Source of the DNA: a virus | Length of the DNA stretch: 45,367 bases | Virus record (IMG/VR): IMGVR_UViG_3300049797_000001 | Coordinates: 1-45,367 of that record | Reading direction: 5' to 3' (one strand) | Shown here: positions 18,677 through 24,106 of the stretch, in pieces | Numbering within the stretch: the first letter of the stretch is position 1 | Layout of the letters: every line of letters begins with the position of its first letter | Translations under genes and position numbers: made by a program | Notes under the pieces: model-generated | What the model was told of the DNA's origin: nothing | The model's database searches: none | What the model saw: only the letters and a program-made list of their open reading frames with translations

Positions 18677-19240
18677 TTAACGTCGAGCGCGACGAGGTGC
18701 TCGGGTAGTCGTTGTGGCTTCCGGCTCCGGCTCCGGCTCCGGTTCAGCTTGCCTTCCACGTCCACGTGATGTCTGAGCCGGTTCCGGATCATCTGCCGGT
18801 TCGACGGACTGAACCTGTGCATTCCACTCACCCGAATTTGGGTTCTTGGAATGCTTGACTTTCAGTCTTGCAGTACAACCCATCCAATCATTCGGGTCGA
18901 TCGTGGTCGTGTTTGAGTCAAGCCCAATCGCTTCCACGAATTTCCGGAGATTGAACAGAGCCCGGCGGTCGCCCTTCGACGGCTTGATCTGACGATTCCA
19001 ATAAAGGGTACAGCCTTCCTCAAAGTCGTCACGCATATCGGCGGGAATATCGTCCGGCGGAATCTGAAACTTCACAGCGTAGTACTGGTTTCCTTTCTGA
19101 CTATTCTGAACCTGTACATCGACAATCTCACCCGTGTAATTACCAGCGGGAAGTTCTGGCGGCTTCTCGACTTCACCAAGCGTCTCTTCCAATTCGATGA
19201 CATCCAATTCGTCATCGTTCTGTTGCGTGTCACGTGCCAT
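18677..19240 (-). CDS. DUF669-like single-stranded DNA-binding protein
   Basis: A 187-residue protein. ATG 19240 has AAGGAG nine bases upstream; an upstream ATG would add a Thr/Ser-rich stretch without a site. Residues about 30-140 (LPAGNYTGEIVDVQVQ, YYAVKFQI, LYWNR, RALFNLRKFVEAIGL, CTARLKVKHSKNP) follow the OB-fold pattern of phage DUF669 proteins that bind ssDNA and accompany Sak4-type recombinases. The C terminus is low complexity: Arg/Gly, five Pro-Glu repeats (GGCTCC repeats on the plus strand), and a basic end. That tail could contact partner proteins or RNA/DNA. Confidence 0.72.
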   Translation of the reverse strand: MARDTQQNDDELDVIELEETLGEVEKPPELPAGNYTGEIVDVQVQNSQKGNQYYAVKFQIPPDDIPADMRDDFEEGCTLYWNRQIKPSKGDRRALFNLRKFVEAIGLDSNTTTIDPNDWMGCTARLKVKHSKNPNSGEWNAQVQSVEPADDPEPAQTSRGRGRQAEPEPEPEPEATTTTRAPRRARR

Positions 19241-19313
19241 TATGGCTTCTCCTTGCGGCGAGGTGGCGCCTGTGTTTGTACTGCCCACCACCTTGGGATT
19301 GTTGCGTCGTGTT

Positions 19314-19601: not shown

Positions 19602-19780
19602 TAGTTGCTACTCCTGCCGAGTATGCGATCAATGCCGTCTTGCTGCAATCCGTATTCGATTGCCGTTCGTTCTGGTACAGAGCCTGCGTTACCACATGTT
19701 TCACAAGCCAATGGATGCCTACCCGTACCTTTGCAGTCAGGGCACTGAACACGTAACGTTTGTCCATTGTACGTTGTCAT
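19601..19780 (-). CDS. Small DnaJ-type zinc-finger protein
   Basis: A 59-residue protein starting in an ATGA overlap with the ATPase stop. It has CPDCKGTG followed by CETCGNAG, the CxxCxGxG-type pair of a DnaJ central-domain zinc finger, then a charged helix (DGIDRILGRSSN). It probably binds one zinc ion. Similar small proteins occur in phage replication operons; function unknown. Conserved cysteines and exact coupling on both sides (ATGA upstream, TAATG downstream) support coding. Confidence 0.65.
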   Translation of the reverse strand: MTTYNGQTLRVQCPDCKGTGRHPLACETCGNAGSVPERTAIEYGLQQDGIDRILGRSSN

Positions 19781-20676
19781 TTGTCTTTCACCTTGTCTTG
19801 TGGAGGTACGATTTTCACCCAGTTGTTATCTTCCCATTCATCAAACCAACGTGCAATAGTCATTTGACCTTTTGCGTCATCAGGCTTGTCTGCATCGTAC
19901 TCCAGCGTGAACTCAGGATTAAACTTGCCTGAGAACATGCGTGTTTTCATAGGCTTGCGCATTTTTGTTGGTCTAATAGCCAAATGTCTATTTCCATTAC
20001 GATCTTGGTGCATCCACCAGATTTCAGATAGTCGCCACGAGAAACTGTTAACTAACTTGCCACCGAGCATGATCGAAATATGAGATATGACCTCTATACC
20101 ATCTTGTTTAATAATTGTCGGATCATCCTCATGCGCTGTGATAATGATATGCACATTGTGCTTTGCTGTGACTTGTAGTAGTCCTTTGAGCACTTCGATC
20201 GTCACACCGTTCCGCCCACCATAAGCACTGAGTCCTGGTGTCTCAATTGTTGGGTAGAATCTATTCCCAGCGCCTACACCTTTGGCTATCACGTGAGTCA
20301 AAGCAAGTGCTGAAATGGCTGTCGCGCTATCGACTACCACAGTTTCGATATTGCGATACTGTGCCAGATACGCGTCAAGGCCAAATGGGTTCTCACTCTG
20401 TCCATGTTTGAACACCTCCGCAGCAGGCCGATCGAATAGTTTCATCACTTTCACGTCCGGTCTATGTTGCACAGATGTGTGTTCATTATCGCCAAATGAG
20501 ATCCAAAGCTTATCACCGGGGGCTGTTGCTGCAAAAGTAGTCTTGCCACACGAAAAGCCTCCCCATAAAAGTACAGCCATACGTCCTGGTGTCTTTGCAC
20601 CTTCTGTGATTTTGAATGGCCCAAGTTGATCGGGCGGATTGGATACATTGGATACCACTAACGTCGGCTTTTTCAT
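19777..20676 (-). CDS. Sak4-like RecA-fold ATPase (single-strand annealing/recombinase)
   Basis: A 299-residue P-loop protein with Walker A GGFSCGKTT (residues 39-47) and Walker B VVVDSAT (113-119); a later strand holds HIIITAHED. This is the AAA_24/Sak4 layout: a compact RecA-like core used by phages for strand annealing together with a DUF669-type SSB, which is encoded two genes downstream. Predicted role: homologous recombination and replication restart. It starts in an ATGA overlap with the upstream small gene and ends in one with the zinc-finger gene. Confidence 0.75.
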   Translation of the reverse strand: MKKPTLVVSNVSNPPDQLGPFKITEGAKTPGRMAVLLWGGFSCGKTTFAATAPGDKLWISFGDNEHTSVQHRPDVKVMKLFDRPAAEVFKHGQSENPFGLDAYLAQYRNIETVVVDSATAISALALTHVIAKGVGAGNRFYPTIETPGLSAYGGRNGVTIEVLKGLLQVTAKHNVHIIITAHEDDPTIIKQDGIEVISHISIMLGGKLVNSFSWRLSEIWWMHQDRNGNRHLAIRPTKMRKPMKTRMFSGKFNPEFTLEYDADKPDDAKGQMTIARWFDEWEDNNWVKIVPPQDKVKDK

Positions 20677-21779: not shown

Positions 21780-23030
21780 CTAATCCTCCATTGCAGCCAT
21801 TTCTGACGGACTCATACGTGCATCAATCATGTCATCCCATTGCTCCATCCGCCCCTCAAACGTGTCGCCGCAAAATGGTATGAGTGCGCACGGCCGAAAG
21901 TATCGATTGCATGAATGCGTATACCGCGGCGCGTACTCGTAATGGTCCTTATAGAACTCATACATATCGGCCGTATGCCTAAACCAGAACGCCCACCGTT
22001 CAAAATCCTCTGTCGTTCTACTTGGGTGAATGACCCAAATATCCTCGCCCCTGTTAGACGGCTTAACCTTAGAGCCCAATATCCGTGAGTGGAAAATATC
22101 AAAACCATACACTGAGGCTGCGGCAGCAAGATAGCCTGAAACCTGGTTCGATAGCTGGAACGAAGCCTTCCACCCGTCGTCAAGACGTGAAGCGGATTTG
22201 TTATCCTCAAGCGTATGGCGCGCTTTAGCAACATTGAATGTCAATCCGTCAAGCGTACCAATGAACCTGTACTGCTTACCGTCATCGTACGTGAGTATCG
22301 AATCGAACGTGTTTTCAATACCAACGACCGAATGCGAGTCATTTCGATCTTGTACATATATTGGCCAATTGTCCATCCGAGGGAGGATCTCTTCGATATA
22401 GACGATTGATGCGAGTTCCATGTTAGCGATCGTCCGATTCTTGTCATCCGGATTATCCTGCCAACCCCCGCTGCGTAATACCTCAGACGCCAGGACCATA
22501 AGCGACGTGCGCTCGTATCGCTCGGAGAGGCTTGCTTTCCAACATTTCCGCCATCGTTGTGAGTCAAATGTGTAGTCATGGTATGGTTTTTCCTCCTTCG
22601 GTCGCTCGAACAATCGTCTCGCTGTCATTGCGGCGTGGTCTGGTAATCGCTGCCGATGATGCACCTGCCATATACGCATCGCGGAGAAAACCTCGTGGAG
22701 CGCCGATCCCGCTTCCAATGCCATGGACCGGCTGCTCGTCTTGTATCGCTTCTGTGCTGACACCACTCCCCACGTCGGGCACATGTTGAGGTTCGTCAAT
22801 CGACTGTTGCTGTACGGGTGCAACGTCCGTTTCTGCTCGGAAGAACTCGGCGTGATTGATATCAAGTGGTGCTGGGCTTGTTGCGCGTTGTGCCCAACGC
22901 CCGTTATCGACAGGTTTCCAATCACGGCCTGGGTAGACGCGATCGGCATAGTCCTGTTTTGTTCCATGCCAGTTCTTGGCAAGCTCGTCAACGTTGGCGT
23001 TTTCCGCTTTGTTGTAGGCTTCTTTGGCAT
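21780..23030 (-). CDS. PD-(D/E)XK nuclease with probable iron-sulfur cysteines (RecB/Cas4-like)
   Basis: A 416-residue protein. ATG 23030 is preceded by TTAGGAG with seven bases of spacer, a better site than any nearby ATG. Core elements: YSNSRLTNLNMCP (start of the fold, Cys84), ALEAGSALHE (His112), IGTLDGL (Asp261), LEDNKSA (Glu275/Asp276 and Lys278), and a QVSGYLAAA helix. Cys374, Cys381 and Cys387 near the C terminus with Cys84 match the cluster that staples AddB/Cas4-type nucleases. Likely a ssDNA exonuclease feeding Sak4-type recombination. Its first 455 bases overlap the preceding gene in another frame. Confidence 0.78.
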   Translation of the reverse strand: MPKKPTTKRKTPTLTSLPRTGMEQNRTMPIASTQAVIGNLSITGVGHNAQQAQHHLISITPSSSEQKRTLHPYSNSRLTNLNMCPTWGVVSAQKRYKTSSRSMALEAGSALHEVFSAMRIWQVHHRQRLPDHAAMTARRLFERPKEEKPYHDYTFDSQRWRKCWKASLSERYERTSLMVLASEVLRSGGWQDNPDDKNRTIANMELASIVYIEEILPRMDNWPIYVQDRNDSHSVVGIENTFDSILTYDDGKQYRFIGTLDGLTFNVAKARHTLEDNKSASRLDDGWKASFQLSNQVSGYLAAAASVYGFDIFHSRILGSKVKPSNRGEDIWVIHPSRTTEDFERWAFWFRHTADMYEFYKDHYEYAPRYTHSCNRYFRPCALIPFCGDTFEGRMEQWDDMIDARMSPSEMAAMED

Positions 23031-23208
23031 CGAGATATCTCCTAACATGTTCGGCACATGCATCGATAATGATCAGTGCCTTCTTTGGATCAGCCCCTGC
23101 TTGAGTCACATGGAATGTCAGTGCAGCAAGTGCATCGTATAGCTCAGCCTGATCAGCCGTATCGAAGAATGTACCATCGTCGGCTAGAAAACCTTTAGCT
23201 GGTCTCAT
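22576..23208 (-). CDS. Hypothetical protein, 210 aa, with C-terminal half overlapping the nuclease gene
   Basis: Starts at ATG 23208 after GGAGGTAAAGTCAA. Residues 1-95 look like a folded helical domain (AELYDALAALTFHVTQ, KKALIIIDACAEHVRRYL). Residues about 60-210 are encoded by the same DNA as the nuclease N terminus in a shifted frame, and the part after about 105 is Pro/Gln/Ser/Asp-rich, as expected for an overprinted extension. The N-terminal domain is almost certainly real; the long C-terminal extension is unusual. No function inferred. Confidence 0.6.
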   Translation of the reverse strand: MRPAKGFLADDGTFFDTADQAELYDALAALTFHVTQAGADPKKALIIIDACAEHVRRYLDAKEAYNKAENANVDELAKNWHGTKQDYADRVYPGRDWKPVDNGRWAQRATSPAPLDINHAEFFRAETDVAPVQQQSIDEPQHVPDVGSGVSTEAIQDEQPVHGIGSGIGAPRGFLRDAYMAGASSAAITRPRRNDSETIVRATEGGKTIP

Positions 23209-23437
23209 TTGACTTTACCTCCGGTGGCCGTAAATGCTGCGCGACTTCGTATTTAACATCGAGAAGCATCTGCTTCATAGTCCACAGGAACTGTTCCTCT
23301 GAGCAATCTACATCAATTGCCATTGAAATGCTCAGCACTTCATTTCCTGCACACGAACAACGATAACGCATTGTAACAATGAGCGGGTTCTCACCAATGA
23401 CATTAGATGCGTGTCGTTCTCTAATTCTATGTGTCAT
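23195..23437 (-). CDS. Hypothetical protein, 80 aa
   Basis: Starts at ATG 23437 with GGAGGTAACGA upstream, overlapping the preceding gene by 11 bases and the following by 14. It has strands around TMRYRCSCAGNEVLSISMAI and an acidic helix EEQFLWTMKQMLLD. A CSC pair alone is not enough for a zinc site. Function unknown. Confidence 0.6.
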   Translation of the reverse strand: MTHRIRERHASNVIGENPLIVTMRYRCSCAGNEVLSISMAIDVDCSEEQFLWTMKQMLLDVKYEVAQHLRPPEVKSNETS

Positions 23438-23621
23438 TCGTTACCTCCGGGTGTGCCTCGAATATCCGGTCGGGCGACGGTGCTGTTTGACTCAAATAAC
23501 TATCCTCGTGCTTGGCAAAGTTGTTATTGCCATCATTTGCCATGAACGTATCGTGTGGACACATGACGCTGCGGAACACGTCTTCGAAGTACTTATTGCA
23601 AGCTTGGCAGCGAATGATCAT
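23427..23621 (-). CDS. Small zinc-binding-like protein, 64 aa
   Basis: Starts in an ATGA overlap with the upstream gene (ATG 23621). CQACNKYFEDVF and then MCPHDTF give CxxC and CxxH-like ligands of a degenerate zinc finger. The tail is polar; YLSQTAPSP is encoded by the TTTGACTCAAA motif. Coding is supported by coupling on both sides. Function unknown. Confidence 0.55.
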   Translation of the reverse strand: MIIRCQACNKYFEDVFRSVMCPHDTFMANDGNNNFAKHEDSYLSQTAPSPDRIFEAHPEVTNDT

Positions 23622-24106
23622 GCTGTGCCATCCCAAGGAAACATTAGCTGCTTCATTTTGTCTTGTAATGCATCGAGCACAGACCCTGAGAAGGAATTAC
23701 GATCCGCACCATTTAATACCTGCGCCATTTCACGCGCGACAAGCCGCTGTCTCGCAAATGTTACCTTGGCCATTGGTGAGAATGACTTCTTAATCATAAG
23801 ATCGAGGGGTATTTCGTGTATCATTCGATTATATTCGTATGCCCATGACTCAGCTTTGTCATAATCCTCTTTATTAGCGAGTATTTTGCGAACAGCGGCC
23901 CACCGTGACATGACAGGGCCTTGTACCTGAGACGGTGCCTGATTGAATCCTTGTCCTGGCTTACAGTCTTGTGCTTGCCCCACGTTACCGTAGGACTCTC
24001 CATGGGGCAATGCTGCTTTAGCAATACCAGCAACATTACCTAATGCAGCAGCAACACCAGCGGCTGCGACTGGTAACTGTCGTCGTGTGAATGGCATCTT
24101 AAGCAT
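23618..24106 (-). CDS. Exported or membrane-anchored hypothetical protein with Tat-like N terminus
   Basis: A 162-residue protein from ATG 24106 (GGAGG nine bases upstream). FTRRQLPVAAAGVAAALGN resembles a twin-arginine signal: Arg-Arg followed by an Ala-rich hydrophobic stretch, then AKAAL as a possible cleavage site. The mature part is helical and charged. A phage early protein sent to the envelope could alter adsorption or membrane state; whether the signal is used is unknown. It overlaps the previous gene by eight bases. Confidence 0.6.
   Translation of the reverse strand: MLKMPFTRRQLPVAAAGVAAALGNVAGIAKAALPHGESYGNVGQAQDCKPGQGFNQAPSQVQGPVMSRWAAVRKILANKEDYDKAESWAYEYNRMIHEIPLDLMIKKSFSPMAKVTFARQRLVAREMAQVLNGADRNSFSGSVLDALQDKMKQLMFPWDGTA

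Follow-up and report, generated by a model that had tools for sequence, protein, structure and literature searches.

Long same-strand overlaps between phage genes are already known from the two-component spanins, for which the part of the survey used here counts 182 embedded and 228 overlapped arrangements among 528 systems and links the out-of-frame segments to disorder-promoting residues (PMC6139136). The overlapped spanins, typified by those of phage P2, and the embedded Rz/Rz1 pair of lambda resemble the gene pair described in this report in that both genes lie on the same strand and the second protein starts inside the first, in another frame. They differ in that spanins are interacting lysis proteins of the envelope, whereas here the downstream gene is predicted to encode a DNA exonuclease and the overlap reaches into the folded enzyme domain.

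Elsewhere, long co-directional overlaps are usually put down to annotation error. Of 715 co-directional overlaps longer than 60 bp in a survey of 338 prokaryotic genomes, not one was judged to be real, and the longest that the survey took as real below 60 bp, holD–rimI of Enterobacteria, measures 56 nt at most (PMC2478687). It is likewise a real co-directional overlap, but about 4–8 times shorter than most of those reported below. For viruses, the passages drawn on give a median of 14 nt for +1 overlaps (PMC8903798) and a length below 50 nt for 84% of overlaps (PMC7017920).

Here we describe a small gene, labelled P2 in this report, which shares 455 nt with a Cas4/AddB-like exonuclease gene. 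The overlap recurs in dozens of divergent phages with both frames apparently under selection, and is probably a real, old, same-strand dual-coding pair within a phage recombination module. The literature that we searched, mostly at the level of listings, contained no account of a small protein overlapping a Cas4/AddB-like phage exonuclease.

Arrangement of the two genes

The window, that is the whole stretch of DNA analysed, is the virus record IMGVR_UViG_3300049797_000001 with its 45,367 bases. It contains genes for terminase, portal and major head protein, and a minus-strand module with DNA polymerase, a RecD/Dda-like helicase, single-strand binding protein (SSB) and a Sak4-like recombinase. 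P2 and the nuclease are encoded on the same (minus) strand, the nuclease frame being +1 relative to that of P2. The features of the locus are listed below.

23217–23222, minus strand: Shine–Dalgarno sequence of P2, GGAGGT (from the sequence)
22576–23208, minus strand: P2, 210 residues, predicted to comprise a folded core (about residues 1–79) and a disordered tail; ATG at 23208, TGA at 22578–22576 (from sequence and model)
23039–23043, minus strand: Shine–Dalgarno sequence of the nuclease, AGGAG, within P2 codons (from the sequence)
23028–23030, minus strand: ATG of the nuclease, within P2 codons D60–A61; a single alignment column in 39 of 40 representatives
21780–23030, minus strand: predicted Cas4/AddB-like PD-(D/E)XK exonuclease, 416 residues, with a four-cysteine signature of the Fe–S type (from sequence, model and fold match)
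22576–23030, minus strand: two-frame overlap of 455 nt (from the open reading frames)
22836–23030, minus strand: zone A, encoding the N-terminal extension of the nuclease (residues 1–48 of low model confidence) and, in the other frame, P2 tail
22576–22835, minus strand: zone B, encoding the first conserved part of the folded nuclease and, in the other frame, the distal P2 tail
22779–22781, minus strand: codon of C84, first of four invariant cysteines, in the overlap
22695–22697, minus strand: codon of H112, the invariant motif histidine, in the overlap
22248–22250, minus strand: codon of D261, putative catalytic aspartate
22197–22205, minus strand: codons of D276-N277-K278, the (D/E)-x-K motif
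19777–20676, minus strand: Sak4-like recombinase, conserved downstream neighbour
18677–19291, minus strand: SSB, conserved downstream neighbour

Both open reading frames were found where the original prediction had placed them, and the two nuclease segments that it had named as conserved (SRLxxxxxCP, here SRLTNLNMCP, and ALEAGSALHE) are indeed encoded within the overlap.

Relatives of the gene pair

Viral contigs were searched with both proteins and with alignments, which yielded 138 loci, many of them repeated contigs; from one viral-contig search, the best 80 of 159 confirmed loci were taken. Merging of loci with 97% identity or more left 34 representatives, to which six loci selected by eye among those of the P2 search were added, giving 40 with the window included. 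Two loci stand outside this set: L067, which carries an insertion, and L095, whose nuclease frame is interrupted by a single stop. The contig of L010 is truncated and lacks P2, and L046 was excluded from the codon tests.

The +1 arrangement was found in the window and in all 64 viral loci with P2 beside the nuclease (several being one contig twice, and the best 80 of 159 included); L067, where the insertion lies between P2 and the nuclease, is the exception to the overlap. P2 crosses the nuclease start in all 40 representatives, and in none does it stop before the overlap. Its end lies between 86 nt (L029) and 458 nt (L063) past the nuclease ATG, with 164 nt in L033 and 455 nt in the window; most overlaps measure 220–460 nt. 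In the clade of the window (clade 1), the nuclease carries 14 additional residues following LFE (22562–22604 in the window), at the overlap end; this insert is absent from the other P2-bearing clades. P2 was not detectable beside the distant nucleases (23 representatives), most of which, among those examined, come after a different small gene, mostly with a short overlap.

The neighbourhood recurs as well: the Sak4 gene was found in 130 and the SSB gene in 103 of the 138 retrieved loci (the best 80 of 159 included). None of the 138 loci contains a relative of the three open reading frames directly upstream of P2 in the window (23195–24106), so P2 lies at the border of the conserved module. P2, exonuclease, Sak4 and SSB form a conserved block, and the genes upstream of P2 are not common to it.

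Among the 50,697 named phage records of INPHARED there was no match to the DNA, to P2, or to the nuclease of the window, L092 or L120. The plasmids searched gave no match, and of 142 pattern matches in a set with one genome per species (84,980 species) none was confirmed. The overlap belongs to an uncultivated, little-known group of tailed phages.

The nuclease starts inside P2

Strong ribosome sites had been predicted for both starts, and both are present in the window (GGAGGT at 23222–23217 for P2, AGGAG at 23043–23039 for the nuclease). A run of four or more bases of the Shine–Dalgarno consensus stands at the right position before 38 of 39 nuclease ATGs, compared with 19% of 839 ATGs inside nuclease bodies. 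Among relatives that keep the pair, the nuclease starts at one and the same P2 column in 39 of 40, rather than further downstream; this column lies in the P2 codons for [YF]x[ND][AV]. The first two bases of the ATG come from a P2 codon that reads AAT or GAT, and so ends in T, in 39 of 39 cases; of the other Asp/Asn codons of the P2 core, 105 of 220 end in T. In many relatives, a stop codon of the nuclease frame lies directly 5′ of the ATG. The conserved column, the Shine–Dalgarno sequence, the T-ending codons and the preceding stops together indicate that the nuclease does begin inside P2, and as far as sequences can tell we regard this start as secure. In L046 the usual ATG is lost; the first in-frame ATG follows 39 nt further on and has a Shine–Dalgarno-like sequence before it.

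A frame relation of +1 and a long stretch open in both frames are also what would be seen if P2 and the nuclease were made as one product by +1 ribosomal frameshifting within that stretch. However, the conserved ATG with its Shine–Dalgarno sequence and the frequent nuclease-frame stop just before it speak for an independent start, and make a frameshift product highly improbable. In the dual-coding arrangement that we prefer, ribosomes would start on P2 at 23208 and continue to 22576, and others would begin the exonuclease in the +1 frame at its own Shine–Dalgarno sequence and ATG (23030). One mRNA and a common start region may tie the synthesis of the two proteins to each other. As a form of such coupling, termination–reinitiation was ruled out because the P2 stop lies 455 nt beyond the nuclease start.

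The nuclease

From sequence and model, the downstream protein is classified as a Cas4/AddB-like RecB nuclease with a putative Fe–S cluster, a predicted exonuclease. In an alignment of 33 P2-clade and 23 distant sequences, C84 is present in all 56, and C374, C381 and C387 in 55, the remaining sequence (L028, from a contig cut at its 3′ end) having a gap. D261, K278, Q296, Y300 and H112 are invariant in the same sequences, and position 276 is D or E. The protein thereby shares with the nucleases of the Cas4/AddB/Dna2 type one N-terminal and three C-terminal cysteines, the D...(D/E)xK and Q...Y motifs and the motif histidine; the four-cysteine layout of Cas4/AddB is described in the section of PMC3466216 that we cite.

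The structure model, calculated from an alignment of 47 of 62 proteins (39 + 23 representatives), has a pLDDT of 85.8 and a pTM of 0.83; residues 1–48 are of low confidence and the protein is folded from there. The best PDB fold matches by Foldseek were a Cas4-family protein (ACE1, E 1.2e-05) and AddB (E 1.6e-04), and the PHROG family ‘exonuclease’ was matched by seven of seven aligned members. The protein differs from nucleases of the Cas4/AddB/Dna2 type in having no match in a PDB sequence search and no Pfam hit above the cut-off (for the window, DUF1403 only, with 14.2 bits against 31.8), and in the N-terminal extension of 23–65 residues that is read over P2. Cas4-like nucleases borne by phages are common, according to the portion of PMC5704561 consulted. 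Gene callers that bar long overlaps would clip P2 or begin the nuclease too late, and would then drop the putative Fe–S ligand.

The P2 protein

P2 is predicted to consist of a folded core and a disordered tail with a variable end. In the AlphaFold model, based on an alignment of 32 of 39 proteins, mean pLDDT (by tens of residues) is 82–97 for residues 1–70 and about 45–63 for residues 101–210, in agreement with the folded N-terminal part and disordered overlapped tail that had been expected from the composition. Family searches returned weak matches (Pfam E 0.2, PHROG E 0.4; core members at best E 0.006). In structure comparisons nothing convincing was found among 79 aligned chains (best Z 4.1), and no fold at E ≤ 0.001 among viral models. 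As the end of P2 varies between lineages (86 nt in L029, 164 nt in L033), the distal tail must be dispensable and much of it can be lost. P2-like stand-alone proteins of 64–65 residues were found at seven loci (L127, L132 and L135–L139, from 3001), the nuclease being absent from the fetched stretch; these align to P2 residues 1–36 or 1–58 only, with weak E-values.

Selection on the P2 frame

When the codons of the window were permuted with the nuclease protein held fixed, the P2 frame stayed open as long as observed in 0.5% of 2000 shuffles, and a null based on codon usage gave P 0.002 for the open run. The 455 bases reported as coding in two frames are thus open beyond what chance would give. 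Among the representatives, P ranged from 0.0005 to 0.15 across the 33 tested by codon permutation, and from 0.002 to 0.15 across 39 for the second null. Fisher combination of the open-run probabilities over 19 lineages gives 1.6e-17, which is too optimistic because the lineages share ancestry.

Rates of nuclease-synonymous change were compared with those of the non-overlapped body of the gene, L002 being dropped from clade 2 since its P2 runs on. For the overlapped stretches termed B1 and B2, the relative rates in clade 1 were 0.76 (0.58–0.94) and 0.74 (0.53–0.97), and that of B1 in clade 2 was 0.77 (0.59–0.95). In homologous columns without overlap they were 0.97 for B2 of clade 2, where P2 has already ended, and 1.02 and 0.97 for the distant nucleases. 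The direct contrast between clades 1 and 2 at B2 was 0.77 for all synonymous changes, with an interval that includes 1 (0.52–1.08), 0.78 (0.61–0.97) for fourfold and 0.46 (0.14–0.97) for twofold sites. RNA structure is unsupported as a cause of the lowered synonymous change: for 15 of the 39 representatives, with one 120-nt stretch at the start and one in the overlap for each, folding in the overlap was not unusual (mean z −0.08).

The similarity of the P2-frame proteins was then compared with simulations in which the number of synonymous changes was held fixed, using 13 path-disjoint pairs chosen by hand from the tree. The observed proteins resembled each other more closely than the simulated ones did, with z at 4.7 in zone A, 5.0 in zone B and −0.2 in a downstream control. 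With pair-specific codon usage z was 3.7–4.3 in zone A and 4.6–4.9 in zone B; the whole range was 3.7–4.7 and 4.6–5.2, respectively, and the third frame gave −0.5 to 0.6. Some controls lay above zero, namely the distant nucleases without P2 (1.6–2.2 in homologous columns, 0.5–1.7 downstream) and one P2-clade downstream region (1.96), so that a bias of the statistic accounts for part of the excess and the raw z values overstate it. Among stop-free simulations only, z was still 3.9 in zone A and 3.6 in zone B. These comparisons indicate purifying selection on the P2 frame in the overlap, with the upward bias seen in some controls, and the stop-free test favours selection on the sequence of the tail beyond its openness alone.

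It could be argued that the nuclease alone is selected here, P2 being a protein of about 62 residues which has lost its stop and drags a tolerated junk tail. The ends of P2 do vary (86–458 nt) and fall on a few shared nuclease columns, the tail words over SNSRL...CPTWG mostly mirror the conservation of the nuclease, and the model tail is disordered. Nevertheless, the openness of the frame above the codon-shuffle nulls, the lowered nuclease-synonymous rates where P2 is open, the residue similarity beyond stop avoidance (z 3.6–3.9) and the stops that arise in the separated copy of L067 (see below) are at odds with a junk tail, which we consider unlikely.

More weight is due to the proposal that the open state alone is selected, keeping the mRNA translated past the nuclease start whatever the sequence of the tail. 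The disorder of the tail would suit it, as would the rarity of stop-free outcomes (2–8%) in zone B simulations of 3 of the 13 pairs. Against this, the excess of residue similarity persists among the stop-free simulations, no structured start region was found in the 15 of 39 representatives, and in L029 P2 stops after 86 nt. We judge selection for openness alone to be possible though not probable; as it is a variant within dual coding, the weight given to it overlaps with that of dual coding itself.

Selection on the nuclease frame

Fourfold sites synonymous in P2 had changed in 83 of 163 cases in the P2 core, in 16 of 99 in zone A and in 9 of 216 in zone B (13 pairs; 9 for zone B). The smaller share in the two zones points to constraint by the nuclease frame in the overlap. 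A test of which changes occur was significant in zone B (z 4.4) and not in zone A (z 0.80). By these sequence comparisons the nuclease frame is kept in the overlap, with a strong signal in zone B and a clear one in zone A. The synonymous-site constraint that had been suggested as a check was hence detected among relatives in both frames.

Possible origin and function

On the dual-coding reading, the 5′ part of the overlap would encode two disordered segments, the N-terminal extension of the nuclease and P2 tail, and the remainder would encode the first folded part of the nuclease, with the Fe–S-type cysteine and the motif histidine, together with the disordered distal tail of P2. Purifying selection would hold this distal tail open and similar, its end drifting between lineages. 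Through most of zone A, the models predict disorder for the nuclease extension as well as for the P2 tail.

The fixed nuclease start at P2 residue 60, the varying P2 stop and the stand-alone proteins of 64–65 residues would fit an ancestral P2 that ended near residue 60, slightly overlapping the start of the nuclease. Loss of its stop would have led to read-through, making the P2 tail the younger reading. Overprinting of the tail had been proposed originally; the relatives and the constraint on both frames support it, the direction (P2 tail over nuclease) is one that we infer, and the far end of the tail has turned out to be dispensable. Codon usage of the two frames in the window differs by about one standard error, which gives no verdict on their order. 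The tail-length variants, together with the one lineage in which the genes are apart, offer a test bed for the overprinting and subsequent trimming of a frame.

From its place in the block, P2 may or may not be, with about equal probability, an accessory of the exonuclease in an exonuclease–Sak4–SSB pathway. In zone A the net charge of the nuclease is positive in 38 and that of P2 negative in 37 of 39 representatives. A pairing device, in which the mostly basic disordered N-terminus of the exonuclease and the mostly acidic disordered P2 tail would bind during synthesis, with P2 holding or loading the nuclease at a fixed ratio, is a speculative and rather doubtful idea. As a selected trait, charge complementarity was rejected, being mostly a by-product of the frame relation: over 19 lineages the zone A charge of P2 was −3.9 against a null mean of −2.5, and P2 of the window is less negative than the null.

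Natural separation of the two genes

At positions 1268–2800 of L067, an inserted open frame is fused at ‘SNS’ to a first copy of the N-terminal part of the nuclease. The inserted frame resembles, and may be, an HNH homing endonuclease. Further on, at about 2105, lies a second nuclease start, which is complete and no longer under P2. In what used to be the P2 frame of this separated copy, two additional stops precede the usual one, and most of the resemblance to the P2 tail is gone; the nuclease itself is still similar (80% at the nucleotide level to L047). The pattern is what lost selection on the P2 frame would look like, in this one case.

In L095, the otherwise intact nuclease frame contains a single internal TAG (...HQV*GYL...), which may be either a sequencing error or the mark of a decaying gene.
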